Shown: positions 10,592 to 56,088 of the stretch, in pieces
Layout: every line of letters begins with the position of its first letter
Position numbering within the stretch: position 1 is the stretch's first letter
Assembly (NCBI RefSeq): GCF_019396345.1
Contig: NZ_JAHKRM010000028.1
Coordinates: forward strand, 69,498 to 133,497
Length of the DNA stretch: 64,000 nucleotides
Source: Nonomuraea guangzhouensis
GTDB lineage: Bacteria > Actinomycetota > Actinomycetes > Streptosporangiales > Streptosporangiaceae
Reading direction: 5' to 3'
Notes under the pieces: generated by a model
Seen by the model: the letters and a program-made list of their open reading frames with translations, nothing else
Databases searched by the model: none
What the model was told of the DNA's origin: nothing
Translations under genes and position numbers: made by a program

Positions 10592-10638
10592 GTGAACGCC
10601 ACGCCAGAGATACCCGTCCAAGCGAAGGGACGCCGACG

Positions 10639-11028: not shown

Positions 11029-11317
11029 GCGAGCGGGTTCGCGTCGCGTCGCGCCGGTCGTCGGCCGGCCAGCGGCCGGTCACCTTGCGGACGCCGTGTG
11101 CGCCGGCACGTTGAACGGCCGCTTTCACCAGGCCGAAGACGGCGCCCTGCAACATGGCGGACACCAGCACCTCCTGCCAGGTGTAGTCCGGGTCGTCGGC
11201 GTCAGGAGGCTCATCCTCCCACGCGATGATCTTCCACACCTGCTTGAACAGCATGCCGGCGATCAGCCCGCCCAGCATGCCGAACAGCAGCGGCAGTGGT
11301 TTGTACAGCAGGGTCAT
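10991..11317 (-). CDS. DUF4235 family small membrane protein
   Basis: A 108-residue protein with an N-terminal membrane segment (LLYKPLPLLFGMLGGLIAGMLF), a charged stretch rich in Asp/Glu/Pro, then WQEVLVSAMLQGAVFGLVKAAVQRAG, followed by an Arg-rich tail. This is the usual layout of DUF4235, an actinomycete family of unknown role often found near stress genes. The ATG at 11317 has GAGG four bases upstream, while the GTG just before it is too close. It overlaps convergently with the PH-like gene. Confidence 0.8.
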   Translation of the reverse strand: MTLLYKPLPLLFGMLGGLIAGMLFKQVWKIIAWEDEPPDADDPDYTWQEVLVSAMLQGAVFGLVKAAVQRAGAHGVRKVTGRWPADDRRDATRTRSLRPGRRSGRTTS

Positions 11318-11466
11318 CACACCTCATCCCGTTTCTGCCTACCCTGCCCCGCAAAACCCGCAGCATGTACCCGCGACATTGATGAGATGCACTCATGTTT
11401 GGGTCTTGTTGCCGGGACCTAGGCGGCGGATGCTGACGGCAGGCCCCCCAGCCGTGCGAGGTGTCC

Positions 11467-13038
11467 ATGATGCGCCGCCGATCCATCGCCGTCGTCCTCC
11501 TCCTGCTGACCGCCTCGCTGATCTCTCCGGGGGGCAGATCGGCAGCGGCATCCGATGTTCGCGGCTTCGTCGACGCGCACAGTCACCTGTTCTCGTACGA
11601 GGCGTTCGGCGGCATGCTGCTGTGCGGCAAGCCGTTCGACCCCGCCGGCATCGCCCAGGCCCTGACGGACTGCCCTGATCACTACCCCCACGGCGAACTG
11701 GCCTGGTTCGAGAACTTCACCCGGACCGGCTCCCCCACCGGCACCCACGACCCGGTGGGCTGGCCCACGTTCCGCGACTGGCCGGCGCACGACTCGCTGA
11801 CCCACCAGCAGGCGTACTACACGTGGGTGGAGCGGGCCTGGCGCGGCGGGCTCCGGATCATGGTCAACGACCTGGTGGCCAACCGCCAGCTATGCGCGAT
11901 CTACCCGTTGAGGAAGAACTCCTGCGACGAGATGGCCACGCTCAGGCTGGAGGCGCAGCGGGCCACTGAGCTGCAGGACTACATCGACGCCCAGTACGGC
12001 GGGCCCGGACAGGGCTGGTTCAGGATCGTGCGCGACCCGGCCGAGGCCAGGCGGACGGTCGAGGCGGGCAAGCTCGCCGTTGTCCTGGGCGTCGAGACCT
12101 CCGAGCCGTTCGGCTGCCGCCAGATCCTCGGCATCCCGCAGTGCACCCGGGCGCAGATCGACCGCGGGCTGGACGAGATGCACGCGCTCGGCGTACGGAG
12201 CATGTTCGTCTGCCACAAGTACGACAACGCCCTGTGCGGGGTGCGCTTCGACTCCGGCACCCAGGGCGCCATCGTCAACCTGGGCAACCTGCTCAGCACC
12301 GGCTCCTTCTGGCAGGCGCGTACCTGCACCGGGCCTGAGCACGACAATCCCATCGATCCGGGCGGGGTGCTGCCCGACCAGCTCGCCGGGCTGCTGCCTC
12401 CTGGGGTCTCGCTGCCGGTCTATCCCCCCGCGCCGCACTGCAACACCAAGGGGCTGACCGCCCTGGGCGAGTACATGGTCCAGGGAATGATCCGCCGGGG
12501 CATGCTGGTGGAGGTCGACCACATGAGCGCGAAGGCCGCCGGTCGTACGCTCACCCTCCTCGAAGCGGCCGGCTACCCGGGCGTGATCTCCTCCCACAGC
12601 TGGGCGGATCCGAGCTACTTCGACCGGATCTACGCCCTTGGCGGGATGATCACCCAGTACGGGCACAACGCGCAGGACTTCGTCGCGGAGTGGCGCCGCA
12701 CCCAGCCGCTCAGGCAGGCGCACCAGATCCCCGGCTACGGCTACGGCCTGGACGTCAACGGCCTGGGCAAGCTCCCCGGCCCCCGCGCCGGCAACTCCGC
12801 GAACCCGGTGACGTACCCCTTCACGTCCTTCGACGGGAGCGTGACCCTGGACCGGCTGCGCACCGGCGACCGGGTCTGGGACGTCAACACGGACGGCGTC
12901 GCCAACTACGGCCTGGTGCCCGACTGGATCGAGGACATGCGGATCCTCGCCGGTCCGGACATCGTCCGCGACCTGGCCGCGGGCGCCGAGTCCTACCTGC
13001 GTACGTGGGCGGCCGCCACCGCCCGGCGCGCCCCATAG
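11467..13038 (+). CDS. Secreted membrane dipeptidase-like metallohydrolase
   Basis: A ~523-residue exported protein with an Arg-rich N-terminus and hydrophobic signal (MMRRRSIAVVLLLLTASL). Metal-ligand motifs of the peptidase M19/amidohydrolase barrel are present: DAHSHL (His-x-His) right after the signal, LGVET in the middle, VEVDHMSAK and ISSHSW. It is clearly longer than ordinary M19 dipeptidases because of insertions with several Cys. Such enzymes cleave dipeptides or D-amino-acid conjugates outside the cell; the true substrate is unknown. GAGG five bases before the ATG at 11467 decides the start over the GTG at 11461. Confidence 0.75.
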   Translation: MMRRRSIAVVLLLLTASLISPGGRSAAASDVRGFVDAHSHLFSYEAFGGMLLCGKPFDPAGIAQALTDCPDHYPHGELAWFENFTRTGSPTGTHDPVGWPTFRDWPAHDSLTHQQAYYTWVERAWRGGLRIMVNDLVANRQLCAIYPLRKNSCDEMATLRLEAQRATELQDYIDAQYGGPGQGWFRIVRDPAEARRTVEAGKLAVVLGVETSEPFGCRQILGIPQCTRAQIDRGLDEMHALGVRSMFVCHKYDNALCGVRFDSGTQGAIVNLGNLLSTGSFWQARTCTGPEHDNPIDPGGVLPDQLAGLLPPGVSLPVYPPAPHCNTKGLTALGEYMVQGMIRRGMLVEVDHMSAKAAGRTLTLLEAAGYPGVISSHSWADPSYFDRIYALGGMITQYGHNAQDFVAEWRRTQPLRQAHQIPGYGYGLDVNGLGKLPGPRAGNSANPVTYPFTSFDGSVTLDRLRTGDRVWDVNTDGVANYGLVPDWIEDMRILAGPDIVRDLAAGAESYLRTWAAATARRAP

Positions 13039-42674: not shown

Positions 42675-44831
42675 TCAACCCGCAGCGTGCCGCCCGTCCG
42701 CCACCTCGACCGACAGACCGGGTGGAAGGCCCGTGACCTCGGCCCTGCCGGAGCGGTCGATCGACACAGTGACGTCGGCGCCCGCCACTCGCAGGCCACG
42801 CACCGTGACCGCGCCGAGTGGGGCTCCCGCGAGTGGACGCAGCAGGACCTTGCCGCCGGGTACATCCGGATACAGGCCCACAGCCGCGTGCAGCAGTGTC
42901 ACGGCGGCGGCGGCCGACCATGCCTGGGGGCGGCAGGCCGCCGGGTAGGCCACCGGGCGGCCGACCGTGTCCCGGTCGTCGCCCGCGTGGAGTTCGGGCA
43001 GACGGTAGTCGAAACCCTCCGCCGCCGCCAGCAGGCCCTGCGCCAGGTCCGCCGCCAGCCGCCCATGACCGGTCCTGGCGAGGCCGGCGAGGACGATGGC
43101 GGTGTCGTGCGACCAGACGGACCCGCAGTGGTAGGACAGCGGGCTGAACGCCACGTCATCGGCCGACATCGTCCGGAGCCCGAAGGCGCCGGACATCGCC
43201 GGGGTGCCGAGCAACTCCGCCACTCTCGCCTCCTCCCCCGCCGACAGCAGGCCCGTGCCGAGGAGGTGGCCGATGTTGCTGGTCAGCGAGTCGACCGGCT
43301 GTTTGGCTCCGTCGAGGGCCAATGCGGGATAGCTGTCCTCACGACCAGTGACCGACGCGGAAAAGCCACCCCCAGGGGCGGGGCCGGTGACCCAGAAGCG
43401 GGCGCGGAAGCGGTCGGTCATCGTGCCCGCGTAGTCCAGCCACCGTTCGGCCCCCCGGCGGCCGAACGCCGTCAGCAGGGCGGCGCCCTGGCGGGCGGCG
43501 GCGCAGGCGTACCCCTGGACTTCCGCCAGCGCGATGGGCGGTTCGGCCTGGCGGCCGTCGTGGAAGCGGACGGCGTCGCCCGAGTCCTTCCACCCCTGGT
43601 TGGCCAGGCCGTGGCCGGTCAGGTCGATGTACTCCAGGAAGCCGTCCCCGTCAGGGTCCGCATGATCGCCGAGCCAGCCGAGCGCCGCCTCCAGGGCCGG
43701 GAGCAGAGGTTCGACCTGGGCGGCGGGCATGCCCCAGCGCCAGGCGTCGTACAGCAGGCCGATCCAGAGCGGGGTGGCGTCGATGGTGCCGTAGTAGGCG
43801 GCGGGCAGCCGCAGCCCGCCGCCGCTGTGTTCGTGGCGGCGCAGCTCGTGCATGATCTTGCCGGGCGCCTCGCCGGTGGCCGGGTCGACGCGGGTGCCCT
43901 GCCGCCGGGCCAGGACACGGAGGGTGCTCGCCGCCAGGTCGGTGCCCAGAGGCAGCAGCATCCTGGCGGCCCAGAGGCTGTCACGCCCGAACAGCGTCAG
44001 GAACCACGGCACCCCCGCGCCCAGGAACGTGTCCCCCGGCTCCCCGGGCTCGGCCAGCCTGAGGGAGCGCAGGTCTTCGAGCGAACGCGCCGCCAGGCGT
44101 ACGAGCCGGGTGTCGTCGGCCGTCACCTCGGGGACGCTCCACTCCAGCGGCCTGGCCGGCGCGGTGACCACCGCGTCCGGGTCGTCGATCACGGCGGCCC
44201 ACCGCAGCGTGACCCGCTCGCCGGGCGCGAGCGAGATCTCCCACCGCAGCCGCCCGCCGACCCCACGGGGATCTCCCGGCGCCTCGGGGTGTGGCTCCAC
44301 CGTCGCGTTCTCGCCGGTCGCCCGCACTCGGATGCGGCCGGATCGCCACTCCAGGGACCCGCCGTCAGCGGACGGGACGAGCGAGGCGGCGGCCGGCGGG
44401 GCGGTGCCGCCGGACTTCACCAGCTCGATCGGGGCGAAATCGCAGCTCAGGTCCACTGTGACGGTGGCCGTCACGGGGCGGGTCGCGGTGGAGGCGATCT
44501 CGATGAGCTCCGCCATCCGTCCGGGAGTGACCTCGCGCGTACGGTCGACACGGACCGTGGGGTCCGCGATCGGGTCGCCCAGCCGGCGGACCAGCGACAC
44601 GAACCTGGTACGCCCCGCGGCCTGCGCGGCATGCCCCACGGCCTCCGGTTCCCAGCCGTCCACGGCCAGTGTGACCTGGGACAATGCCCGCGCGTCCGCA
44701 TGGAACAGACCCTGCACCCCGGCCGCCCTGATCTGCCCGTCGGTGCCGCTCAGCGCGGTCGTCGGTGCCAGGACGGTGCTGACGAGGTCGTGCAGCAACG
44801 GCTGCAGGCGGTGCGTGGCTTGGTCGAGCAC
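42675..44831 (-). CDS. Glycogen-debranching/amylo-alpha-1,6-glucosidase-like glycosidase
   Basis: A ~718-residue cytoplasmic protein. The N-terminal beta-sandwich (LHDLVSTVLAP, GVQGLFHADARALSQ) matches the 'glycogen debranching enzyme N-terminal' domain. The C-terminal (alpha/alpha)6 barrel has GAGVPWFLTLFGRDSLWAARM, GLANQGWKDSGDAVRF and YHCGSVWSHDTAI, which contain the acidic catalytic candidates. It would trim sugars taken up by the ABC system nearby. GTG at 44831 is preferred (GGGGG six bases before); a TTG at 44867 lacks a site. Divergent from lacI. Confidence 0.85.
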   Translation of the reverse strand: MLDQATHRLQPLLHDLVSTVLAPTTALSGTDGQIRAAGVQGLFHADARALSQVTLAVDGWEPEAVGHAAQAAGRTRFVSLVRRLGDPIADPTVRVDRTREVTPGRMAELIEIASTATRPVTATVTVDLSCDFAPIELVKSGGTAPPAAASLVPSADGGSLEWRSGRIRVRATGENATVEPHPEAPGDPRGVGGRLRWEISLAPGERVTLRWAAVIDDPDAVVTAPARPLEWSVPEVTADDTRLVRLAARSLEDLRSLRLAEPGEPGDTFLGAGVPWFLTLFGRDSLWAARMLLPLGTDLAASTLRVLARRQGTRVDPATGEAPGKIMHELRRHEHSGGGLRLPAAYYGTIDATPLWIGLLYDAWRWGMPAAQVEPLLPALEAALGWLGDHADPDGDGFLEYIDLTGHGLANQGWKDSGDAVRFHDGRQAEPPIALAEVQGYACAAARQGAALLTAFGRRGAERWLDYAGTMTDRFRARFWVTGPAPGGGFSASVTGREDSYPALALDGAKQPVDSLTSNIGHLLGTGLLSAGEEARVAELLGTPAMSGAFGLRTMSADDVAFSPLSYHCGSVWSHDTAIVLAGLARTGHGRLAADLAQGLLAAAEGFDYRLPELHAGDDRDTVGRPVAYPAACRPQAWSAAAAVTLLHAAVGLYPDVPGGKVLLRPLAGAPLGAVTVRGLRVAGADVTVSIDRSGRAEVTGLPPGLSVEVADGRHAAG

Positions 44832-44895
44832 AAGCGGCCCCCAAATCTTGACAGGCGAATCGTCCAAGGGAGATAGTGCGTAACACTCCGTTTAC

Positions 44896-44938
44896 TTGAA
44901 CGATCCAATCCTGCCATACGGCGATTTGAACGTTCAAA
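44896..44938. promoter_or_regulatory. LacI-type operators between glycosidase and regulator genes
   Basis: TTTGAACGTTCAAA (44925-44938) is a perfect 14-bp palindrome with the central CG typical of LacI-family sites. A second, imperfect copy TTGAACGATCCAA lies at 44896-44908, about three helical turns away. Both sit in the 125-base gap between the divergent genes. Confidence 0.75.
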
Positions 44939-44956
44939 CCATTAGAAAGAGACATG

Positions 44957-45919
44957 ATGCCTGAAAAGGTGACGATCGCCGACGTCGCGCGGCGGGCCAG
45001 CGTCTCCCGGCAGACCGTCTCGAACGTTCTGAACTCCCCCGACCTCGTCCGCGAAGAGACCCGCGAGCGCGTACGGCAGGCGGTCGAAGAGCTCGGCTAC
45101 CGGGTGAACCAGGCCGCGCGGCGCATGCGGACCGGCCGGTCGCGGCTGCTGGCCGTGCGGATCGAGCAGACGCAGGATGGCATGAACGTCTTCGACCGGT
45201 TCCTGCATGGGCTGACCGACTCGGCGGCCAAGGCGGGATATCGGGTGATCCTTTACACGGCCGACGACGACCGGTCGGAGATCGCCACGTTCGACGACCT
45301 GCTGGGGGCGTACGAACCGGATGCGTTCGTGCTGACCGGCACGCATTACGGTGATGTGCGTACCTCGTGGCTGGCCGAGCGGGAGCTGGCGTTCGTCACG
45401 TTCGGCCGGCCGTGGGGCATGCCGGAGGGCGGCGCCCATCCGTGGGTGGACGTGGACGGCGCGGCCGGCACGGCCGCCGCCACCCGGCACCTGCTCGGCG
45501 CGGGTCATCGGCGGATCGGGTTCATCGGCTGGCCCGAGGGCTCCGGCGTCGGTGACGACCGCAGGAGCGGATGGGCCCGAGCGCTTGACGACACGGGCGC
45601 GCTGGAGCGGCGGACCGATGGGTCCGCGGCCGAGGGTGAGGCGGCGGCGAGGGAGCTGATCGCGGCCGGCGCCACCGCCCTGGTGTGCGTGAGCGACTCC
45701 GTCGCCCTGGGCGCGTTGCAGGCCGGGCCGGTGCCCGTGATCGGGTTCGACGACACGCCCGTGGCGGCCGCGATCGGCCTGACCAGCCTCAGCCAGCCGC
45801 TGTCAGACGCCGCCGCGCGCTGCGTCGGCGTGCTGACCCGGCTCCTCGAAGACGACAGCCCGGACAAGCCGGATCACGTCCTGCTTGAGCCCTCCCTGGT
45901 CATCCGGCGTACAGCGTGA
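44957..45919 (+). CDS. LacI family transcriptional regulator
   Basis: A ~320-residue repressor. TIADVARRASVSRQTVSNVLNSP is the helix-turn-helix, VNQAARRMRTGRS the hinge, followed by a periplasmic-binding-like sugar domain (VILYTADDDRSE, IGFIGWPEGSG, VIGFDDTP). It probably senses the sugar carried by the ABC transporter that follows and binds the palindromes just upstream. ATG at 44957 has AAAGAG five bases upstream; the adjacent ATG at 44954 is possible. Confidence 0.92.
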   Translation: MPEKVTIADVARRASVSRQTVSNVLNSPDLVREETRERVRQAVEELGYRVNQAARRMRTGRSRLLAVRIEQTQDGMNVFDRFLHGLTDSAAKAGYRVILYTADDDRSEIATFDDLLGAYEPDAFVLTGTHYGDVRTSWLAERELAFVTFGRPWGMPEGGAHPWVDVDGAAGTAAATRHLLGAGHRRIGFIGWPEGSGVGDDRRSGWARALDDTGALERRTDGSAAEGEAAARELIAAGATALVCVSDSVALGALQAGPVPVIGFDDTPVAAAIGLTSLSQPLSDAAARCVGVLTRLLEDDSPDKPDHVLLEPSLVIRRTA

Positions 45920-45930
45920 AAGGAACCACG

Positions 45931-47157
45931 ATGAAACACCTCCCCCTGGCGGCGCTGGCCGTACTGGCGCTGGCCGCGACCGCGTGCGGCAGCGGCTTCG
46001 AGGACAAGCCGGCGGCCGCGCCGCAGAGCAGCGGCCCCGCCTCGCTGCGGATCCTCATCGCCTCCTCCGGCGACCCGGAGACGACCGCGGTCAAGCAGGC
46101 CGCGGACGCGTGGGCGAAGGCGAGTGGCAACCAGGCCACGGTCACCCCGGCGCAGGACATCCACCAGCAGCTCGGCCAGGCGTTCGCGGGCGGCACCCCG
46201 CCCGACGTCTTCTACGTGGACGCCTCGCGGTTCGCCGACTACGCCAGCGTCGGCGCGCTGGAGCCGTACGGGGACAAGATCTCGAACCCGGACGACTTCT
46301 ACCCGAGCCTGCGCACCACGTTCACCCGGGACGGCAAGTTCTACTGCGCGCCGAAGGACTTCTCCACGCTGGCGCTGATCGTCAACGACGGACTGTGGAA
46401 GAAGGCGGGCCTGGCGGCGTCCGACGTGCCGACCACCTGGGAGCAGCTCACCGCGGTGGCCGGCAAGCTCAAGGCCAAGGGCATCACCCCGCTGGCGATC
46501 GGCGACACCCGCGACCGGATCGGCGCGTTCATGGTGCAGGCCGGCGGCTGGATCACCAGCGCCGACGGCAAGCAGGCCACCGGCGACAGCCCCGAGAACC
46601 TCAAGGCCGTGGAGTACGTCAAGACACTGCTCAAGGACAAGCTGGCCGAGTACCCCAAGCAGCTCGGCGCGTCGTGGCCCGGTGAGGCGTTCGGCAAGGG
46701 CAAGGCCGCGATGACGATCGAGGGCAACTGGATCAAGGGCGCGCTGAAGGCCGACTACCCGGACATCCAGTACACCGCCCACCCGCTGCCCGCCGGGGCC
46801 AAGCAGGGCACGCTGTCGTTCACGAACTGCTGGGGCATCGCGGCCAAGAGCGCCAGCAAGACGGCGGCGATCGCCTTCGTCGAGGCGATGACCAAGGCCG
46901 ACCAGCAGCTCACGTTCGCCAAGGCGTTCGGGGTGATGCCGTCGCGGCAGTCGGCCAAGGACGCCTACGTCAAGGAGTTCCCCATGGACACGGCGTTCGT
47001 GGACGGCGCCGCCTACGCCCAGGGCCCGGTGAACGCCCCCAAGATGGACAGCGTCCTGGCCGACTTCGACGCCGGTCTCCAGCAGCTCACCACGCAGGAC
47101 CCGAAGGCGCTGCTGGCCAGGCTGCAGAAGAACACGCAGTCCGCCCTGGGTGAATGA
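45931..47157 (+). CDS. CUT1 sugar ABC transporter substrate-binding lipoprotein
   Basis: A 408-residue lipoprotein with lipobox ATAC (Cys19), then a family 1 solute-binding fold: ILIASSGDPETTAVKQAADAWAKASG, PPDVFYVDASRFADYASVGAL, YCAPKDFSTLALIVNDGLWKKAG and AAMTIEGNWIKGAL. Members bind oligosaccharides such as maltodextrins or cellodextrins; which one is not clear, though the debranching-type enzyme upstream hints at alpha-glucans. AAGGA lies before the ATG at 45931. It overlaps the first permease gene by four bases. Confidence 0.92.
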   Translation: MKHLPLAALAVLALAATACGSGFEDKPAAAPQSSGPASLRILIASSGDPETTAVKQAADAWAKASGNQATVTPAQDIHQQLGQAFAGGTPPDVFYVDASRFADYASVGALEPYGDKISNPDDFYPSLRTTFTRDGKFYCAPKDFSTLALIVNDGLWKKAGLAASDVPTTWEQLTAVAGKLKAKGITPLAIGDTRDRIGAFMVQAGGWITSADGKQATGDSPENLKAVEYVKTLLKDKLAEYPKQLGASWPGEAFGKGKAAMTIEGNWIKGALKADYPDIQYTAHPLPAGAKQGTLSFTNCWGIAAKSASKTAAIAFVEAMTKADQQLTFAKAFGVMPSRQSAKDAYVKEFPMDTAFVDGAAYAQGPVNAPKMDSVLADFDAGLQQLTTQDPKALLARLQKNTQSALGE

Positions 47158-48161
47158 TGCGCCGCAACCGGGTCAGGGATGACGTGACGGGGTGGCTGTT
47201 CGTCGCGCCGGTCGTGGTGATCCTCGGGGTGTTCCTGCTGCTGCCGATCCTGATGGCGATGTGGGTCAGCCTCACCTCGTGGAACGGCCAGGGCAGCCCG
47301 TTCAAGAGCGGCGTGCCGTTCGTCGGGCTGGAGAACTACGGGCGGCTGTTCACCCGCGACGACCTGGCCCGCGAGAACTTCATGATCAGCATCAGGAACA
47401 ACGCCTACTACGTGGCGATCGTCGTACCGCTGCAGACGGCGCTGGCGCTCGGCCTGGCCCTGATCGTGAACAGCCGCCTGCTCAAGGGCAAGTCGTTCTT
47501 CCGGAGCGCGTTCTACTTCCCGTCGGTCACCAGCTCGGTGGCGATCAGCGTGGTGTTCCTGTTCATCTTCAGCAACTCGGGGGCGCTCACGCAGTTGCTC
47601 GGCTTCTTCGGCATCCAGGGGCCGCAGTGGTTCTCCGACGCCCGAGGGGTCATCCACCTGCTGCTCGGCATGGACACGCCGCCGGCGGCGCTCGCCGGGG
47701 CGGGGCCGTTCGGCCTTTCGTGGTGGGAGTGGCTGTCGGGGCCGAGCGTGGCGATGTGCGCGATCATCGCGCTGGTCGTGTGGACGACGTCGGGGACGTT
47801 CATGCTGATGTTCCTGGCGGCGTTGCAGGACATCCCGGTGACGCTGGAGGAGGCGGCCATGCTCGACGGGGCCGGGCGGTGGCAGCGGTTCCGGTACGTG
47901 ACGCTGCCGATGCTCAAGCCGACGATGTTCCTGGTGCTGACGCTCGGGCTGATCGGGACCTGGCAGGTGTTCGACCAGATCTACGTGATGAGCCAGGGCG
48001 CGCCGGCCAAGACGACGCTGACCCCGGCGTTCCTGTCGTACCGGACGGCGTTCCGGGACTTCGACTATGGGGCGGGGACGGCGATCTCGTTCGTGCTGTT
48101 CCTCATCATCGTGCTGCTGACGCTGTTCCAGCGCCGGGTGATGCGGGAGAGGAGGGGCTGA
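47154..48161 (+). CDS. CUT1 sugar ABC transporter permease (MalF/UgpA-like)
   Basis: A 335-residue membrane protein with six or more helices. The N-terminal helix is GWLFVAPVVVILGVFLLLPILMAMWVSL, and the EAA loop is LEEAAMLDGAGRWQRFRYVTLPMLKP. It forms the import channel with the next gene's product. A periplasmic insert around residues 150-190 is longer than typical. Translationally coupled to the binding protein (ATGA) and one base before the second permease. Confidence 0.93.
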   Translation: MMRRNRVRDDVTGWLFVAPVVVILGVFLLLPILMAMWVSLTSWNGQGSPFKSGVPFVGLENYGRLFTRDDLARENFMISIRNNAYYVAIVVPLQTALALGLALIVNSRLLKGKSFFRSAFYFPSVTSSVAISVVFLFIFSNSGALTQLLGFFGIQGPQWFSDARGVIHLLLGMDTPPAALAGAGPFGLSWWEWLSGPSVAMCAIIALVVWTTSGTFMLMFLAALQDIPVTLEEAAMLDGAGRWQRFRYVTLPMLKPTMFLVLTLGLIGTWQVFDQIYVMSQGAPAKTTLTPAFLSYRTAFRDFDYGAGTAISFVLFLIIVLLTLFQRRVMRERRG

Positions 48162-48162
48162 G

Positions 48163-48993
48163 GTGCGCAAGCTCGCGAGCACCTTCACCGGCTACGCGAT
48201 CCTGATCTTCTTCGCGCTGGTGTTCATCTACCCGTTCGTCATCCAGATCGCGAACTCGTTCAAGACCGAGCCGGACGCGGCCGCCTCCCCGCTCTCGCCC
48301 ATCCCGCACCCGGGGACGCTGGCGGGGTTCGAGCGGGTGTTCAGCGGTACCGACCTGCCGGTGTGGCTGGGCAACTCGCTGCTGGTGACGGTCGTGCTGA
48401 CGGTCGGGCGGGTGTTCTTCGACTCACTGGCCGGGTACGCGCTGTCCAGGCTGCGGTTCCGGGGGCGGTCGGCGCTGTTCGGGGCGGTCATCGCGGTGAT
48501 GGCCGTGCCCGGCGTAGTCCTCTTTATCCCGAAATTTCTGGTCCTCAACCAGTTGGGGATGTATGACAGCTATCTGGCGTTGATCCTGCCGGTGATCGTG
48601 GACGCGGCGGGCGTGTTCATCATGAAGCAGTTCTTCGACTCGATCCCGGCGGGGGTGGAGGAGGCCGCACGGATCGACGGCGCGGGCACGTTCCGCACGT
48701 TCTGGTCGGTGGTGCTGCCGATGGCCCGGCCGGCGCTGATCACGCTGACGATCATCTCGTTCCAGGGGTCGTGGAACGAGTTCCCCCACACGCTGGTGGC
48801 CGTCCAGGACCCGGCACTGTTCACACTGCCCCGGGGGCTGGCCGATCTGGTCAGCGGGTCGCTGGGGGGCGGCACGCAGTACCCGCTCAAGCTGGGGGCG
48901 GCGCTGCTGGCGACGATTCCGGTGGCGGTGATTTTCGTGATCTTCCAGCGCAGGTTCGTCCGCGGCGCCAACGAGGGTAGCGACAAGGGCTGA
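48163..48993 (+). CDS. CUT1 sugar ABC transporter permease (MalG/UgpE-like)
   Basis: A 276-residue membrane protein with six helices. The EAA loop is VEEAARIDGAGTFRTFWSVVLPMARP, and GSWNEFPHTLVAVQDP is family-typical. It completes the channel with the preceding permease. No ATPase gene follows; actinomycete CUT1 systems commonly share the MsiK ATPase encoded elsewhere. GTG at 48163 with GGAGGGG upstream. Confidence 0.93.
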   Translation: MRKLASTFTGYAILIFFALVFIYPFVIQIANSFKTEPDAAASPLSPIPHPGTLAGFERVFSGTDLPVWLGNSLLVTVVLTVGRVFFDSLAGYALSRLRFRGRSALFGAVIAVMAVPGVVLFIPKFLVLNQLGMYDSYLALILPVIVDAAGVFIMKQFFDSIPAGVEEAARIDGAGTFRTFWSVVLPMARPALITLTIISFQGSWNEFPHTLVAVQDPALFTLPRGLADLVSGSLGGGTQYPLKLGAALLATIPVAVIFVIFQRRFVRGANEGSDKG

Positions 48994-49035
48994 ACCCGCA
49001 CCTGCCCGGGCGCCAACGCACAGGAGGCTGGGTGG

Positions 49036-50040
49036 TCAATGGTCGGTGATGAGGGCGTCCAGAGCGGCTGCCTTGTCGGCTTCGGAGGGCAGGGCGTAGC
49101 GCCGGGTGGTGTCCAGCGAGTCGTGGCCGAGGAGTTCGGCGACCAGGATGGGGTCTTTGCCGTCGCGGATGAGCTGGGTGGCGAAGGTGTGGCGCAGGAC
49201 GTGCGGGCTGAAGGATTCGGTGGGGTCGTCATTGAGGCCGACAGCGTCGCCGAGGCCGGTGATGATGTCGCGCGCGGAGCGGTCGCTCAGGCGGCCGCCG
49301 CGGTGGTTGAGGAACACCGCGGCGTGGGTGCCGGCCCCCTTCCAATCGGCGCGGGCTTCCAGCCAGTCGGTCAGGGCCTGGCGCAGGTCCGCATGGACGG
49401 GCAGCAGGCGGATCTTGCCGCCGTCACGGCCCTTTCCGCAGATGCGCAGTTCGCCCTTGCGGGCCGACAGGCGTACATCGGCCAGGTCGAGGCCAACGAC
49501 CTCGGAGATGCGCAGGCCGGCGTAGTAGGGCAGCAGGGCGATGGCCTTGTCGCGCGGGGATGCGGTGAGCTGGACGTGGCGGACGTAGCGGCGGGTGCGC
49601 GGGGCGTCCAGGGCGCGGGGTGCTGTGCGGCGGGTGTCGCGTTCGCGGCGGGCTTGGGGTTTGCCGAGGCTGCGGCGGGCGTAGAAGTCGTCGATGGCCG
49701 ACAGGTAGGTGTCGATGGTGTTGGGGGCGCGGCGGCCGTTCTTCAGATGCCGGCGGAAGTCGTTCACGGCGCCGGTGGCGGCGATGTGGTCGGCGAGCGG
49801 GTCGCCGTCCAGCATGCCGGCGTCGGCTTGGTCGGCCAGCCAGGCCAGGTAGCCGCGCAGCCGAGAGGCGTACTTGGTCTTGGTGGAGTCGGCCAGCGGG
49901 GCGTGCGCGAGTGCGGCGGTGTAGCCGGCCAGGACGGCGGCGTGGGGGGCGGAGAGCGGAAGGGCCCGCGACCGGCTTGTGTTTCCGGAAGCCGATCCGG
50001 CCGGTTGCGTGATCTCTGAGGGCGCGTTTCCGGAAGTCAC
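49036..50040 (-). CDS. Tyrosine recombinase (XerC/D-like integrase)
   Basis: A 334-residue site-specific recombinase: core-binding SAM-like domain at ~30-125 and catalytic domain at 145-334. The full set is present: Arg177 (AGLRISEV), a beta-hairpin Lys (203 or 209), His280 and Arg283 (HVLRHTFAT), His306 (LLGHDSL) and nucleophile Tyr315 (RRYALP). It should cut and join DNA, but no phage, plasmid or tRNA attachment site is nearby. GTG at 50040; TAAACT seven bases upstream and no ribosome site suggest a leaderless message. A 26-bp palindrome lies at 50053. Confidence 0.88.
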   Translation of the reverse strand: MTSGNAPSEITQPAGSASGNTSRSRALPLSAPHAAVLAGYTAALAHAPLADSTKTKYASRLRGYLAWLADQADAGMLDGDPLADHIAATGAVNDFRRHLKNGRRAPNTIDTYLSAIDDFYARRSLGKPQARRERDTRRTAPRALDAPRTRRYVRHVQLTASPRDKAIALLPYYAGLRISEVVGLDLADVRLSARKGELRICGKGRDGGKIRLLPVHADLRQALTDWLEARADWKGAGTHAAVFLNHRGGRLSDRSARDIITGLGDAVGLNDDPTESFSPHVLRHTFATQLIRDGKDPILVAELLGHDSLDTTRRYALPSEADKAAALDALITDH

Positions 50041-50052
50041 CCGTTCAGTTTA

Positions 50053-50078
50053 CTTCCGGAATTGCGCAATTCCGGAAG
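50053..50078. promoter_or_regulatory. Perfect 26-bp palindrome upstream of the integrase gene
   Basis: CTTCCGGAATTGC (50053-50065) is followed directly by its exact reverse complement GCAATTCCGGAAG (50066-50078). TTCCGGAA also occurs at 49983-49990 and 50028-50035, giving four copies in 95 bases. It overlaps the likely integrase promoter (TAAACT on the minus strand). It may be an operator or a recombinase-binding site. Confidence 0.8.
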
Positions 50079-50192
50079 CCATGCCGTACACTGAAGATAC
50101 CGAGGTCTTTTCGAGCGTTGGCATTCAGGTCTGCGTCGCCCGCGGCGAACCACCACTGGCCCTTTCGGAGGGCCTGGACAGGTCAGGCGACC

Positions 50193-50675
50193 ATGACGCC
50201 GACACTTCTTTCTCAACCCGCACCGCTCAGCTCCACCTCGTTCGCGATCCCTCGGGTCGATTCCGCGCTTCGGCTCAGTCTCCGCCCGGTGCCGAATCGG
50301 CGAGCGGTGGTGGACGGGGCCTGGTGGCCCTCCTCCCGTGACGCGGCCGCCGAGTTGCCCGGTCTCATCGCCGCCGTGGATCGGCTGCTTGATCGGGTCA
50401 CGCTCCGCATCAGCCTGCATGGCGACGCGTGGCAGAACATCCCGCGCCGCATCCCGGCGCGCGGGCGTCAGGTCCGTATCGGCTGGTTCCGCCACACCGA
50501 CCCGCGCGTGATCATTCTCAGCTTCGCCGCCGGTGAGCCGGTCGTCCTGCTGATCATCCCTTCGGGTACCTCCGAGGCCACGGCCGACGGCTCGGCCCGC
50601 TGGGAGGACGAGGGCGGGTCGGTCATCGGGCAGGTGACGCAGTCATTCATGGGACGGCCGACGACGTCGGAATGA
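50193..50675 (+). CDS. DUF5994 family protein
   Basis: A 160-residue soluble protein. RLSLRPVPNRRAVVDGAWWPSSRDAAAELPGL and GWFRHTDPRVIILSF are typical of DUF5994, an actinomycete family of unknown function often near STAS and stress proteins. The next gene is a STAS protein, 119 bases on. ATG at 50193 starts the family-like N-terminus; reading further upstream to 50118 is possible but less protein-like. Confidence 0.8.
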   Translation: MTPTLLSQPAPLSSTSFAIPRVDSALRLSLRPVPNRRAVVDGAWWPSSRDAAAELPGLIAAVDRLLDRVTLRISLHGDAWQNIPRRIPARGRQVRIGWFRHTDPRVIILSFAAGEPVVLLIIPSGTSEATADGSARWEDEGGSVIGQVTQSFMGRPTTSE

Positions 50676-50794
50676 CCCCGTGCCGCCTGCCGGCCGGATC
50701 GAGCGGTCCTGGCACCGCCCGTACTGGCGGCGGGCCGATCTTCGGCCGGCAGGTATCTCATGACCTTTCAGTTTCTCCCGTGAGGAGGACTTCC

Positions 50795-51118
50795 ATGACC
50801 GTCATCGACACCGCCCCGCTCGCCGGGGTGAGCGCCTCGGCGCCGACCCTCGTGCATCTGTCGGGGGACATCGACATCTTCACCACAGCCCGGCTGCGCA
50901 AGAGGCTGATCAACACCCTCGACCACAGCACCGACCTGCTCATCTTGGATCTGTCCCAGGTCACCTTCTGCGGGGCAGGCGGCTTGGGCGTGCTGATCGG
51001 CGTGCAAGGCCGTGCCCGGACACGGGGCATCACGCTGGCTCTGACCGGCGTTCCTCCGCGCATGGCCCGGCTGCTGCGCATCACCGGCCTGCACCACCGC
51101 TTCCCGATCATGGTGTGA
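50795..51118 (+). CDS. STAS-domain anti-anti-sigma factor-like protein
   Basis: A 107-residue single STAS domain (SpoIIAA/RsbV type) that would bind an anti-sigma kinase. LVHLSGDIDIFTTARLRKRL and LLILDLSQVTFCGAGGLGVL mark the fold. At the phosphorylation site the usual Asp-Ser-Ser is Gly60-Ala61-Gly62, so the Ser that is normally phosphorylated (Ser58 in SpoIIAA) is missing. It may be constitutively active or not a phosphoswitch. GAGGAGG before ATG. It overlaps the desaturase start (GTGA). Confidence 0.88.
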   Translation: MTVIDTAPLAGVSASAPTLVHLSGDIDIFTTARLRKRLINTLDHSTDLLILDLSQVTFCGAGGLGVLIGVQGRARTRGITLALTGVPPRMARLLRITGLHHRFPIMV

Positions 51119-52173
51119 CCGGCATGCCATGCACCCGCAAGCCCGCCGAGGCGGGCTATGACGGCAATACGCCGTTCCCCCGCCCCTCTGCGCCCGCGCG
51201 GGCCGGTATCGTCTCGGTAGCGCTGACCGCGGCGATCGTCATCGCGCCGTTCATCGCGCTGGGCGCCGGCATCTGGCTGGCGTGGGGAGGCGGGATCACC
51301 CTCACCGACCTGCTGCTGGCCACCGTCTTCTACGTGGTGACCGGGCTGGGGGTGACGGTGGGCTTCCACCGGCTGCTGACCCACCGCTCCTTCACCGCCC
51401 GCCCGTGGCTGCGCGTCGTCCTGGCCGTGGCCGGGTCGATGAGCTTTCAGGGCAACCTCATCGACTGGGTGGCCGTTCATCGCCGCCACCACGCCTTCAC
51501 CGACCGGCCCGGCGACCCACACTCCCCTTACCGCTACGGCACCGGCCTCAGAGGGCAACTGCGCGGCCTGGCCTACGCCCATCTGGGCTGGCTGTTTTCC
51601 AGCGCGCCCACCTCGGCCGCCCGGTATGCCCCCGACCTGCTGCACAACGATCCGGCCATGCTGCGGATCTCGCGCGCCTTCCCCGCCTGGTGCGCCGCCT
51701 CCCTGCTTCTGCCGTTCGCGGCGGGCTGGGCGATCAGCGGCAGCCTGTACGGCGCCCTGACGGCGTTCATCTGGGCCGGCCTGGTCCGCATCGCCCTGCT
51801 GCAGCACGTGACCTGGAGCGTCAACTCCCTGTGCCACATGATCGGCGAGCGGCCGCACAAAACCCGTCGCCATGACCGCTCCACCGACCTGTGGCCGCTG
51901 GCCCTGCTGTCCTTCGGGGAAAGCTGGCACAACGGTCACCACAGCCAGCCCAACTGCGCCCGGCACGGTCGCGGCCCCCGCCAGATCGACCCCTCGGCCG
52001 CGCTCATCGGCCTGTTCGAACGCCTGACCTGGGCCACCAACGTGCACTGGCAGCCCGCCGACGTCCTCGGCCACCATCGCGCGGTGGCCGGCAAACGCAC
52101 GCTGCGAGGCCCACCGGACTCCCGCCCGGCAGGGGGCCAGGGCGCCGCAGTCCGGCGCAGATACTCCCGATGA
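51115..52173 (+). CDS. Acyl-CoA/acyl-lipid delta-9-type fatty acid desaturase
   Basis: A 352-residue membrane di-iron enzyme that puts a double bond in fatty acyl chains. The three His boxes are intact: HRLLTH, HRRHH and HNGHH, plus NSLCHMIG. Four or more hydrophobic segments surround them. GTG at 51115 overlaps the STAS stop, suggesting coupled expression; an ATG at 51124 is the alternative. Pairing with a STAS protein suggests stress or temperature control of membrane fluidity (inference). Confidence 0.9.
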   Translation: MTGMPCTRKPAEAGYDGNTPFPRPSAPARAGIVSVALTAAIVIAPFIALGAGIWLAWGGGITLTDLLLATVFYVVTGLGVTVGFHRLLTHRSFTARPWLRVVLAVAGSMSFQGNLIDWVAVHRRHHAFTDRPGDPHSPYRYGTGLRGQLRGLAYAHLGWLFSSAPTSAARYAPDLLHNDPAMLRISRAFPAWCAASLLLPFAAGWAISGSLYGALTAFIWAGLVRIALLQHVTWSVNSLCHMIGERPHKTRRHDRSTDLWPLALLSFGESWHNGHHSQPNCARHGRGPRQIDPSAALIGLFERLTWATNVHWQPADVLGHHRAVAGKRTLRGPPDSRPAGGQGAAVRRRYSR

Positions 52174-52270
52174 TGCCGTCATCTCGCCTCTGACCAGGGT
52201 CGTTCGACCTCGGCCGCCGACATGGAAGACCGCCGTTTGCTCATCTTCCTGGCTGAGCGAGGGGTTTGGC

Positions 52271-52660
52271 CTAGGCTTCGGTCCGCTTCTCCAGTCGGCT
52301 GCCACGTGGCAGGGTGACGACCATGATGTTGCTGGGGATATCCAGCGCGATGCGGTGCCATCGCCCGCGCGGGACGATGGCCGCGGTTCCGGCCACCAGC
52401 CTGATCTCTTCCTCCTCTTGTCCCGCCTGCTCCGGACGGAGGTAGAGGCGAATCTTCCCGATGATGCAGGACACGACCTCCTCAGCCTCGGGGTGAACTT
52501 CCCAATGGTCGGCGTGGACGTCGGCGTCGGTCTTCGCATGGAAGGCCCTCAGCTGCCAGCCGTCCTGGTCGGAGTCCGTTGTTCTGCTCTCGGCGTGAAC
52601 CTTGCCGCCTTGGTGAAGGTGGATGGAGGACGCGAAGAGCTCGATCGAGGTAATAGTCAC
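52271..52660 (-). CDS. Small cupin-domain protein
   Basis: A 129-residue single-domain cupin. HADHWEVHPEAEEVVSCIIGKIRLYL is the first metal motif (H-x-H-like with Glu) and VAGTAAIVPRGRWHRIALD the second, ending with IMVVTLPRGS. The function is likely metal-dependent binding or isomerisation of a small molecule, not identifiable. GTG at 52660 overlaps the upstream MFS gene's TGA, so the pair is translationally coupled. GGAAGG lies ten bases before it. Confidence 0.82.
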   Translation of the reverse strand: MTITSIELFASSIHLHQGGKVHAESRTTDSDQDGWQLRAFHAKTDADVHADHWEVHPEAEEVVSCIIGKIRLYLRPEQAGQEEEEIRLVAGTAAIVPRGRWHRIALDIPSNIMVVTLPRGSRLEKRTEA

Positions 52661-54102
52661 GCCGAAACGACCTTCCTGCGGTGATCTTTCAACTCTTGTG
52701 GTGGGCTGGTCCGGCGCAGGACGGTGAGGGCGATGAGGGCGGCGACGGCCAGGAGGGCGGCGCTGAGGGTCAGGCCGAACGCGTATCCGTCGTTGAGGGT
52801 CTCGGGCGTGGCGAGCCGGCCGGTGCGGTGGGCGGCCGCGGTGCCGAGGGCGGCGAGTCCGAGTGAGGCGCCGATCTGGCGTGAGCTGTTGAGCAGGCCG
52901 GAGGCGGTTCCGGTCTCGTGGGGCGCGACGCCGCCGGTGGCGATGGAGACGACCGGTCCGAGGCAGAGCCCGAAGCCGACGCTGGCGATGATCGAGGGCC
53001 CCAGGACGTCGGTGATGAAGGCGCCGTCGGAGCTGATCAGGCCGAACCAGGCGAACCCGGTCGCGGTCAGGAGCCCGCCGATGACCAGCAGGGTCCGTGG
53101 AGCGAACCGGTAGCCGAGTTTGACGGCGAGCACGGCACCGGCGACCACACCGAGCGCGAACGGCAGGAACATGGTCCCGGTCAACGCCGGCCCCGTCCCC
53201 AGGACTCGTTGGAGGTAGAGGGACATGAAGTAGAAGGCCGCGGCCATGGCCGCACCGACCAGGAGGTTGTAGACGTTCGCGCCGGCTACCGAGCGGTTGG
53301 CGAACAGGCCGAGCCGGAGGAGCGGTTCGTGGGTGGTGGTCCGCTCGACGTGGACGAACGCGGCCAGCAGTACGGCGGCGACCGCCAGCGTCGCCAGGGT
53401 GATCGGCGAGGTCCACGCGTACTGATCGGTGCGGACGACGCCGAACACCAGCAGGGTCATGCCCGCCGTGGCCAGGACGGCGCCGAGCACGTCCGGACGG
53501 CCGCCGCGCGCGGCCGGCGGACCGGCGGCGATGCCGCGCCAGGCCAGGGCCAGCGTGCCCGCCACTATCGGCACGTTCACGAACATCACCCAGCGCCAGC
53601 TGACATACTCCGTCAGCACGCCGCCCAGCAGAACGCCGAGGGCGCCTCCCGCCGCGTTCATCGCGCTCCATACGCCGAAGGCCCGGACGCGGGCCTTGCC
53701 CGTGGGGAACGTCTCGGTCAGCAGCGCCAGCGCGGCTGGAGCCAGTGCGGCGGCCCCGATGCCCTGGGCGGCTCGGGCGGCGACAAGATGACCGGGGACC
53801 TGGGCGAAGCCGCCGACGAGGGAGGCGAGCCCGAACAGGCCGAGCCCGAGCAGCAGGACCCGCTTGCGGCCGTACCGGTCGGCGGCCTTGCCGCCCAGCA
53901 GGAGCAGCCCGCCGAAGGTGAGAGCGTAGGCGTGGATCACCCAGGTCAAGCCCACCGCGCTGAAGCCGAGACCGGCGGCGATCTGCGGGAGCCCGACGTT
54001 CACGACGGACAGGTCCAGCGACACGGTGAACTGCACGACGGCCACCACGGCGAGGGTCAGCCCCGGCCTGGCAGGTCCGTGGATGTACTGACGGGTTCTC
54101 AT
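52657..54102 (-). CDS. MFS multidrug efflux transporter, DHA2/EmrB-QacA family (14 helices)
   Basis: A 481-residue proton-driven exporter with about 14 hydrophobic segments. LTLAVVAVVQFTVSLDLSVVNVGLPQIAAGLGF is the family N-terminus (with the D..VVNVALP-like motif), GGKAADRYGRKRVLLLGL is motif A, and SAMNAAGGALGVLLGGVLTEYVSWRWVMFVNVP is motif C. It probably exports a drug or metabolite related to the coupled cupin. ATG at 54102 starts directly before helix 1; upstream sequence is not protein-like. Confidence 0.92.
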   Translation of the reverse strand: MRTRQYIHGPARPGLTLAVVAVVQFTVSLDLSVVNVGLPQIAAGLGFSAVGLTWVIHAYALTFGGLLLLGGKAADRYGRKRVLLLGLGLFGLASLVGGFAQVPGHLVAARAAQGIGAAALAPAALALLTETFPTGKARVRAFGVWSAMNAAGGALGVLLGGVLTEYVSWRWVMFVNVPIVAGTLALAWRGIAAGPPAARGGRPDVLGAVLATAGMTLLVFGVVRTDQYAWTSPITLATLAVAAVLLAAFVHVERTTTHEPLLRLGLFANRSVAGANVYNLLVGAAMAAAFYFMSLYLQRVLGTGPALTGTMFLPFALGVVAGAVLAVKLGYRFAPRTLLVIGGLLTATGFAWFGLISSDGAFITDVLGPSIIASVGFGLCLGPVVSIATGGVAPHETGTASGLLNSSRQIGASLGLAALGTAAAHRTGRLATPETLNDGYAFGLTLSAALLAVAALIALTVLRRTSPPQELKDHRRKVVSA

Positions 54103-54214
54103 GACCGCAATCGTCGTCCAGCGACTGCTCAGAGGCGTCGTACAAGTGGAGTGATCTGCCGCTACCACCTCGGGATCAACGACCGACCGGACTACGACGC
54201 CGGGAGTAGTTCCC

Positions 54215-55393
54215 TTAGCCGGGGAGGATGGTGGCTTCGGTGTCGGCAGCCGCTGCCTCGTCGACGCGGCCGAGCCGCCGCAGGCAGGCACTCAGGACGA
54301 TCAGGGCGTCGCGCAGGTCCTGCTCGGCTCGGCGGACCTCCGTCCGCGAGGACTTCAGCTCCTCGTGTCGCCGCTTGCGCACGTACGCCTCGGAGTAGCG
54401 GTGATCGTCGTCGTCCCAGTCGTCCTTCGCCTCCAGCTCCCGGTGCCGCTCCTGATGAGCGCGCGCCCTGTCGCGGTAGAGCTGTACCGCTTGCTCGCCG
54501 GCGGACAGCGCCGCCTTCGGCGCCCCTAACGCGAGCAGGCGGACGCCGAGGTTGTGCCAGGCCCCTGCCTGGTACGTGTCACGCTTACGGCGCCGCATCT
54601 TCCTCATCGCCTCGACGATGCACGCGCGCGCCTGATCGGTTTGCCCGCTCCGGACGAGCCGTTCGCTGTACAGGTCCAACGTCTGGAGGAACTGAACCGT
54701 CGAGTCGGCCTTCAGCCACCAATCCGCCATGACCTCGGCACTCACCTCGGCGGCTTCGGCGACGCGGCCGACCTTGTCCAGACGATCCGCGTAGGCCGTC
54801 AGCGCGTGGATGAGCTCGAAGCCGGCCGATGTGGCCCCAGTGTGCCGCAGCCGTCCGCGGATCTCGGTCACCGCCTCGGCCGCGGCCTCCACCGCCTCCT
54901 GGTCGCGACCGAGCCTGGCGAGGAGCAGCGTCCGCCAGTAGCGCGCATCCGGGGCCTCTACCTGCGCGGATCGGTTGGTTTCCGACAGCCGCAGGAGCTC
55001 CTCGACAACCTCAAGCGCTTCCTCATACCGCCTGCACTCCATGAGGCTGCGGCGTAACGCGGCCAAGGCATGGACGATCTTGTCACCGAACAAGCCCAGT
55101 CGGTCGGCGGACAATGTCCGATAAACCGCCAGCTCTTCCCGGCGAGCCAGGCAGGCGAGATCGTCCCATCCCAGCTCGGTCAGCCACTTGGCGAGCTGGT
55201 CCAGCGCCTCGGGTAAGGCGGTCGGCGAGGGCCACGTGTCCGGGGATCGCCCACGCAGCTGCCTGACCAGCTCAAGCTCGTCCGCCGCCCACCGCACGGT
55301 CTTGTCCGGCCGGACCACACCCCAGTAACGGGCTGGATCCACGGGACGTACGAGCATCGCAGGCTGGACCACTTCAGCGTCCGGCTCGTCCAT
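54215..55393 (-). CDS. TPR-repeat protein coupled to an unknown gene
   Basis: A 392-residue helical protein. The middle and C-terminal parts repeat the TPR pattern (IVHALAALRRSLMECRRYEEALEVVEELLRL; GAWHNLGVRLLALGAPKAALSAGEQAVQLY; RRAEQDLRDALIVLSACLRRLGRVDEAAAAD). The N-terminal ~90 residues resemble no family I know. No enzyme domain is visible, so it is probably a scaffold or sensor. ATG at 55393 overlaps the upstream stop by one base (TGATG), so it acts with that gene's product. Confidence 0.75.
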   Translation of the reverse strand: MDEPDAEVVQPAMLVRPVDPARYWGVVRPDKTVRWAADELELVRQLRGRSPDTWPSPTALPEALDQLAKWLTELGWDDLACLARREELAVYRTLSADRLGLFGDKIVHALAALRRSLMECRRYEEALEVVEELLRLSETNRSAQVEAPDARYWRTLLLARLGRDQEAVEAAAEAVTEIRGRLRHTGATSAGFELIHALTAYADRLDKVGRVAEAAEVSAEVMADWWLKADSTVQFLQTLDLYSERLVRSGQTDQARACIVEAMRKMRRRKRDTYQAGAWHNLGVRLLALGAPKAALSAGEQAVQLYRDRARAHQERHRELEAKDDWDDDDHRYSEAYVRKRRHEELKSSRTEVRRAEQDLRDALIVLSACLRRLGRVDEAAAADTEATILPG

Positions 55394-56088
55394 CACCCGT
55401 ATATACCACCTGTACATGGGTCGGCAGGGTGGCAGCGCGTGGGGGCGTGGCGGACCAGCCAGGCGGACAATGTGGCGAGCTTGTCCTCCTCATCGTCCCA
55501 GGAGTCCCAGGGGAGCCGGTCCCCCAGCAGGTCGGGCTCCCAGCGGGCCACCGATTCAGCCAGGCGCTGGTCGGCGACGGGATGGGCCAGCGTCTCCCAA
55601 GCGGCCAGCCACGGGTCGAGCGTGGCGGACGCCTCGGCGCACATCGCGAGCACCTCGTACGCGGGCACAGCGGCGTCGGCTGCGGTGAGGCTGTACGTCC
55701 ACCATGCGTGCAGGAAGGCCCAGACCGCCGCCACCTGCTCCGCGGGCCATTGCCGCCACTGACCGCGGGCGAAGGAGCGACCGACCTCCTCCATGCCGCA
55801 CCAAGGTTCCACATAACCGTCAACGAGGTCGGAGGCCAGCTGGGGCAGGATACGGCGCAGCACCGCCCCGTGGTCCTCCCAGTCGGTGGCCCGCCAGGTG
55901 CGGTCCAGGAGGTCGAGGCTCAGCCACACATCCGGCACCTTCAGCAGGGCGAGGTCTTCGGCGCTGCCCCAGTGGCACTCGCAGTTGTGCTCGTCGGGAC
56001 GAGCGGTCATACCGCGGAAGGTGGTGGCCAGCTCCTTCAGCGCCGCGTCGAGGCGAAGACCGGCGGGTGTCTGGTCGAAGTGCTTCAT
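55393..56088 (-). CDS. Unknown protein with CxCHWG motif
   Basis: A 231-residue soluble protein I do not recognise. The N-terminal part contains NCECHWGSAEDLALLKVPD (residues ~34-52), whose Cys-x-Cys-His could bind metal. The rest is Trp-rich and helical (WPAEQVAAVWAFLHAWWTYSL; LDPWLAAWETLAHPVADQRLAESVARW). It is the first gene of a two-gene unit with the TPR protein, tightly coupled (TGATG). There is a 73-base gap to the divergent esterase gene. Confidence 0.7.
   Translation of the reverse strand: MKHFDQTPAGLRLDAALKELATTFRGMTARPDEHNCECHWGSAEDLALLKVPDVWLSLDLLDRTWRATDWEDHGAVLRRILPQLASDLVDGYVEPWCGMEEVGRSFARGQWRQWPAEQVAAVWAFLHAWWTYSLTAADAAVPAYEVLAMCAEASATLDPWLAAWETLAHPVADQRLAESVARWEPDLLGDRLPWDSWDDEEDKLATLSAWLVRHAPTRCHPADPCTGGIYG

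Follow-up and report, generated by a model that had tools for sequence, protein, structure and literature searches.

The gene for a solitary tyrosine recombinase in Nonomuraea guangzhouensis starts amid a cluster of short repeats, which raises the questions of what these repeats do and how such a gene came to lie there. We analysed a 64-kb stretch of DNA containing the gene (the window, to which all coordinates refer unless a locus is named). A preliminary description of this sequence had read the repeats as an autoregulatory operator or the crossover site of the recombinase and had suggested a self-contained DNA-rearranging switch.

A composite site at the start of the recombinase gene

The start region contains the following features:

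49036..50040, minus strand: gene for a TnpI-like tyrosine recombinase of 334 amino acids, with the GTG start as listed (PF00589, E 6.4e-32)
49983..49991, minus strand: DR2, direct arm copy, 45 bp past DR1, in codons 17-20
50028..50036, minus strand: DR1, direct arm copy CTTCCGGAA, 42 bp from IR1, in codons 2-5 of the ORF
50047..50052, minus strand: probable -10 element TAAACT of the recombinase gene
50052..50062, no strand assigned: IR2, inner core arm, reading ATTCCGGAAGT on the minus strand
50053..50078, no strand assigned: perfect 26-bp palindrome made up of IR1, centre and IR2
50063..50068, no strand assigned: centre TGCGCA, 6 bp, presumed strand-exchange region
50069..50079, minus strand: IR1, outer core arm, reading GCTTCCGGAAT on the minus strand
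50087..50092, plus strand: probable -10 element TACACT of the divergent DUF5994 operon, from sequence and alignment

The four TTCCGGAA boxes reported at the recombinase start were all observed, beginning at 49983, 50028, 50054 and 50070, and none occurs elsewhere in the window. This number is far above chance, with a mean expectation of 0.35 copies and four copies in none of 100 shuffles. The gap-free perfect palindrome of 26 bp was likewise confirmed at 50053-50078 (CTTCCGGAATTGCGCAATTCCGGAAG); it is the sole perfect palindrome of at least 18 bp in the window, and the longest palindrome in 60 first-order Markov simulations reached 22 bp. As also described, TAAACT adjoins the palindrome and the GTG (50040) lies 6 bases further on. 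Taken as a whole, the site consists of two inverted 11-bp arms around a 6-bp centre and two direct arm copies that lie 42 and 87 bp away from the first arm. The repeat unit is the 11-bp arm ACTTCCGGAAT rather than TTCCGGAA, whose self-palindromy is incidental because the arms in distant relatives are not self-palindromic.

Both DR1 and DR2 fall inside the listed recombinase ORF, which seems to be leaderless. Translation may instead start past DR2, and in L036 the frame running from DR1 reaches a stop shortly after DR2. Reading the translation by eye against a published motif (PMC5357621), we found the catalytic residues R-K-H-R-H-Y complete, in agreement with the full catalytic set claimed previously. 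The ORF is intact, and its pairwise dN/dS against 16 relatives was 0.23-0.37 with the first 24 codons excluded, values that mostly reflect family history and are no proof of present use. The absence of phage genes claimed earlier held for the ORFs of 44000-56000, a check made by eye, with a family scan covering four of the proteins.

Arm conservation and centre variation among related loci

We compared the site across 26 loci (the window, L002-L019, L021, L036, L038, L050, L055, L056 and L063), which share descent and are not independent samples. Left out of this set were L020, L022 and L074, where the start region is absent; L023 and L024, at 28% identity; second copies of the same contigs; and sites with no full-length or near-full-length recombinase beside them (L025, L026, L028, L029, L034, L037 and L041). 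The preliminary description had named absence of the palindrome in orthologues as evidence against its reading, and the arms proved to be present in all but one of the related loci: ACTTCCGGAAT and ATTCCGGAAGT are kept with at most two mismatches over 22 positions in 25 of 26, the second arm (IR2) being lost in L063. The centre is 6 bp long in 24 loci and 4 bp in L011, and takes 19 different sequences among the 25. Conserved arms around a free centre are the pattern of a tyrosine-recombinase core.

The direct copies and the probable promoter element were mostly retained. DR1 is unchanged in 18 of the 26 loci, differs by one base in 5 and by two or three in 3; DR2 is unchanged in 14, differs by one base in 7 and shows at least three mismatches in the remaining 5 (L012, L013, L015, L019 and L038). 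The presumed -10 hexamer, TAGACT or a one-base variant, stands at the equivalent place in 24 of 26 loci, one base further on in L015, and is lacking in L063. Codon 4, which lies within DR1, is GGA in 16 of 17 open related ORFs versus 15 of 438 (3.4%) glycine codons past codon 24; L016 and L019 were dropped from the 19 sequences of this count because the chosen coordinates gave no open frame. This usage indicates that DR1 is constrained as DNA within the ORF.

Among 12 distant recombinases of the genus, about 44-55% identical, seven (L065-L068, L071, L076 and L077) have at least two changed boxes like TTCCGAGA at the gene start, and the other five (L069, L070, L072, L073 and L124) have no such boxes there. 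All four changed boxes are present in L068 and L077, with IR1 and IR2 perfect. These two loci are 97% identical over 1.1 kb, and their homology ends exactly at IR1, beyond which the left flanks are unrelated; their centres differ and measure 7 and 8 bp.

We also scanned 14 start regions for the site with the offsets left free. Spacings of 42 (IR1-DR1) and 45 (DR1-DR2) were found for the window, Nocardiopsis, Alicyclobacillus and G123, and spacings of 43 or 44 and 45, with a 7-bp centre, in L109, L120 and L123. Shuffle controls were run for two regions with a hit. The Alicyclobacillus score was reached by none of 200 base shuffles; the best Halobacillus hit (L140) had another spacing and was equalled by 4 of 200. 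Seven of the 14 regions, namely L119, L124 and five of the seven plasmid records (L140-L144), yielded no good site; in a looser scan, hits in L140, L141 and L144 had other spacings only, and L142 had no hit. In L141, an Anoxybacillus plasmid, a related recombinase lies beside phage-like genes with no transposase annotated nearby, and a possible palindrome with two direct repeats was seen at about 4371-4480 at other spacings (51/47); this site is perhaps a plasmid resolution system.

Distribution of the site and recombinase

The exact paired motif occurs at 17 places in 13 of 150 genomes drawn from the family; four genomes have it twice and 137 lack it. A recombinase match was detected in the fetched locus, with flanks of up to 1.5 kb, at 10 of the 17 places. 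The other seven (L025, L026, L028, L029, L034, L037 and L041) include the remnants L025 and L026 and two bare sites in G142. The bare sites (L114 9185-9278 and L115 9177-9270) are 87% identical over 94 bp, and the 18 kb retrieved around each contains no recombinase match; beyond them, only one 58-bp piece of the L115 flank was seen to match L114. We considered L026 (in G033) as a clean product retaining the left side without the recombinase, but its similarity to L129 runs about 35 bp past the palindrome on the recombinase side, so that it is probably a deletion remnant and was unused as evidence of recombination. The 28-bp match L028 (in G065) has no direct repeats and is probably a chance match. 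Counting distant relatives, a recombinase match with an E value of at most 1e-60 occurs in 26 of the 54 genomes of the genus.

In the N. guangzhouensis genome itself, a single place matches CTTCCGGAAN6-10TTCCGGAAG. No further place with at most three mismatches to the 24-bp core was found in the 127-contig assembly, and no site like an internal resolution site (irs) was found in the loci of the seven other tyrosine-recombinase matches.

Relatives of the recombinase in Tn3-type transposons

Related recombinases were observed in recognizable transposons. In G179, one (L109) lies at one end of an 8.2-kb insertion that is absent from G173. This element has perfect 46-bp inverted repeats and encodes, within them, a Tn3-type TnpA of 1,029 amino acids (PF01526, E 3.6e-133); by our own reading, its flanks are consistent with a 5-bp AGGTA duplication, provided that the outermost repeat base is a mismatch. 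Nonomuraea jiangxiensis (G169; L113) carries the desaturase-STAS-DUF5994-site-recombinase module that the window contains, and the two recombinases are 93% identical. Its copy is bounded by 35-bp inverted repeats (33 of 35 identical) with TACAT on both sides as a 5-bp target duplication. The TnpA inside these repeats is partial, matched only over residues 548-1009.

Seven plasmid records contain related recombinases. A Tn3 family transposase is annotated in four of these, and in a fifth (Alicyclobacillus) TnpA-like sequence comes after a DUF4158 protein; neither a Tn3 transposase nor a DUF4158 protein is annotated in the remaining two. The Priestia element has 34-bp repeats with TTATC on both sides, and the Halobacillus element has 90-bp repeats with unequal flanks. 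TnpA-like sequence was also detected within 4-kb flanks in 7 of 21 loci (L002, L003, L005, L006, L007, L009 and L020, out of L002-L022), whereas the larger stretches L121/L122, L125, L127, L129 and L130 contained none and L124 gave only a weak TnpA match about 5 kb off. Closely related resolvases adjoin TnpA types that are only about 22% identical to each other. A 31-bp inverted repeat in L003 seems to face the wrong way for a Tn3 end, and we draw no conclusion from it.

The window module and its passenger genes

To the right of the site, divergent from the recombinase gene, lie three passenger genes within a segment that we delimited by comparison with G187:

48997..52267, no strand assigned: extent of the putative stranded module (homology to G187 stops at 48996 and resumes at 52268)
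50100..50192, plus strand: highly conserved leader of the DUF5994 gene, from alignment
50193..50675, plus strand: DUF5994 gene, passenger (PF19457, E 6.4e-31)
50795..51118, plus strand: STAS-domain gene (anti-sigma-factor-antagonist-like), passenger (PF01740, E 3.4e-17)
51115..52173, plus strand: fatty-acid desaturase gene, passenger (PF00487, E 8.8e-17)

TnpA queries found nothing in the 64-kb window, and all 12 Tn3-type matches listed for the genome are on other contigs. The module yielded no terminal repeats and no match to the N. jiangxiensis repeat. We have filed the window copy as a remnant rather than a transposon because it lacks a Tn3-type transposase within terminal inverted repeats. 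The word orphan in the preliminary description is apt for this copy, which has neither TnpA nor ends, but does not extend to its relatives, which sit in Tn3-type transposons.

G187 is 97% identical to the window in the flanking transport operon and has a different 4.7-kb stretch (L105 3790-8533) in place of the module; the gap that follows the sugar-transport operon is possibly a hot spot.

The DUF5994 leader is strongly conserved and is possibly a regulatory RNA. In most loci it shares about 78-87% identity with the remnant in G033 (L116) over 84-139 bp, above the 68-76% of the STAS coding sequence in the same comparison. In the predicted fold, the terminal hairpin varies in length and three predicted pairs are changed on both sides; the overall covariation term of +0.12 gives the fold no net support. 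Nothing in Rfam matched at gathering score, the best being RsmW at 18.6 versus 52 bits, and an exact 19-base segment of the leader had no match in IMG/VR. A second DUF5994-STAS pair with the same leader occurs in L121 at about 10530-11521 with no recombinase match beside it. A literature search found no papers on DUF5994.

A probable resolution site and resolvase of Tn3-family descent

Site anatomy, conservation with a variable centre and changed arms in distant relatives were computed directly, as were the linkage of relatives to Tn3-type TnpA, their inverted repeats and target duplication. From these sequence comparisons, we consider it very probable that 49983-50079 is the irs of a TnpI-type Tn3-family resolvase, that 49036-50040 encodes this resolvase and that the module is a stranded remnant. 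The assignment to a transposon rests on the relatives, since the window copy has no TnpA and no recognisable terminal repeats; because neither was found in the window, the site, resolvase and passengers together are read as what remained of an element.

In an intact element, replicative transposition by a Tn3-type TnpA would join donor and target in a cointegrate that contains the element twice, in direct orientation. In each copy, the resolvase would bind the inverted arms IR1 and IR2, DR1 and DR2 would be bound as accessory sites limiting the reaction to correctly placed partners, and strand exchange in the 6-bp centre would separate the fused molecules. Bound resolvase would also repress both its own gene and the divergent DUF5994-STAS-desaturase operon, an expectation that follows from the core overlapping or abutting both probable promoters. 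With one known site in the genome, the window site should normally only autoregulate. The two readings offered at the outset, autoregulatory operator and own crossover site, both fit and are compatible, as TnpI/irs sites are described as being both (PMC7157771); by analogy, the window site is probably both operator and crossover point.

Alternative explanations

The boxes might instead be an operator only, through which the recombinase or another regulator controls the divergent promoters without recombination. The core abuts the recombinase -10 hexamer and lies just upstream of the second probable -10 on the other side, and the window copy lacks a transposase that could form cointegrates. We nevertheless regard this explanation as improbable, since a sequence-free 6-bp centre between conserved 11-bp arms is expected of a crossover site, the same four-part geometry occurs beside a Tn3-type TnpA in another phylum, and homology breaks at IR1 between elements otherwise 97% identical. 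An invertible or excisable switch with a second site elsewhere, in line with the suggested DNA-rearranging switch, would suit a perfect site and catalytic residues that are complete by eye. The genome search proposed with that suggestion returned one place only and no partner is known; no second site flanking a switchable segment was found in this genome, and the loci of seven other tyrosine-recombinase matches had none, although the 127 contigs make a partner in a gap possible. Because a single site was found in its own genome, the switch is not supported, and we judge it extremely improbable.

Two further recombination systems share parts of this geometry. One is a dif-like site at which a single Xer recombinase, as in XerS/difSL, would resolve chromosome dimers; the 11-6-11 geometry is the same as that of dif, xerS adjoins its site (PMC5357621), and the best NCBIfam matches of the recombinase were XerC and XerA, though both below cut-off. 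Against it, no more than 26 of 54 genus genomes contain the recombinase or a relative at E 1e-60, and the paired site, rather than being single on each chromosome throughout the lineage, occurs up to twice per genome and by exact motif is absent in 137 of 150. Flanks differ between genomes, extra direct repeats are present and relatives lie within Tn3-type inverted repeats, so we hold this explanation to be highly unlikely. An attI site consists of a core and two direct repeats. An integron-like site of this kind with cassettes to its left would share that makeup and could account for the differing left flanks of related recombinases. We give it next to no credence, because the integron-integrase model TIGR02249 scored 55.8 bits against a cut-off of 265 and the two elements found end in Tn3-type inverted repeats. 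Coupling sequences like those of Tn916 were considered for the variable centre and dropped on the grounds of Tn3-type ends and TnpA.

The irs as a possible port for cargo exchange

Within the resolvase reading, a doubtful but possible extension is that TnpI recombines the irs of different Tn3-type elements, exchanging everything left of IR1. Cargo and TnpA lineages would be swapped while the resolvase end stays, and different centres would be tolerated; the DUF5994-STAS-desaturase block of the window would be loaded cargo placed under the divergent control of the resolvase. This idea draws on the L068/L077 break at IR1, for which illegitimate events may also account, and on the dissimilar TnpA types beside close resolvases. 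Exchange between transposons at resolution sites has been proposed for the serine-resolvase res site of Tn5501.12 (PMC7157771). Whether resolution sites serve as exchange points for transposon cargo can be tested with this locus.

Comparison with known systems

Tn4430, Tn5401 and TnBth4 are Bacillus elements. To our knowledge, XerS/difSL and XerCD/dif have no accessory direct repeats. These Xer systems resemble the window site and its gene in the 11-6-11 core (dif) and in a gene beside the site (XerS), and differ in having no transposase link (PMC5357621).

The closest likeness in anatomy is to TnpI/irs. The irs of Tn4430 comprises IR1, IR2, DR1 and DR2 beside tnpI, with crossover at IR1-IR2; TnpI binding modulates promoters that lie within the site; and Tn5401 and TnBth4 carry toxin-antitoxin passenger genes directly upstream of the resolvase (PMC7157771). 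Within its Tn3-family library (a 190-member tree), the same source reports TnpI resolvases for three derivatives only, namely these three elements. With them the locus shares a tyrosine recombinase, a gene-adjacent IR1-IR2-DR1-DR2 array, a tie to Tn3-type TnpA, promoters within the site and passengers, as judged by published site anatomy. The window copy itself has the complete catalytic residues and all four site parts beside the gene. It differs in being actinobacterial and in having DR1 and DR2 inside the listed, seemingly leaderless resolvase ORF; in TnpA-bearing relatives, cargo lies between tnpA and the resolvase, whereas the window copy has no TnpA or ends. No actinobacterial TnpI system was reported among the literature matches listed (titles and abstract starts), which is weak evidence of absence.

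Two plasmid elements are also among the closest known systems. The Nocardiopsis flavescens plasmid (CP054934.1) has an annotated Tn3 family transposase, cargo and a recombinase 50% identical over residues 108-333, with arms CTTCTGGAA, 42/45 spacing and an annotated GTG start over DR1; its cargo is different and terminal repeats were not found. Plasmid p1 of Alicyclobacillus sp. SO9 (NZ_CP066340.1) encodes a recombinase 39% identical, with the DUF4158 protein and TnpA-like sequence directly after it, and its irs spacing of 42/45 is identical; its arms are TTCTAATAA and the whole site lies upstream of the annotated start codon. The window leads to a diverse actinobacterial branch of TnpI-like systems in which arms and accessory repeats have changed, and a Firmicutes member shares the geometry. 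The changed arms form a natural series for reading recombinase-site specificity, and the locus provides a candidate tyrosine recombinase/site pair for actinomycete genetics. Likeness to TnpI/irs also suggests where a solitary integrase gene with no other explanation may have come from.
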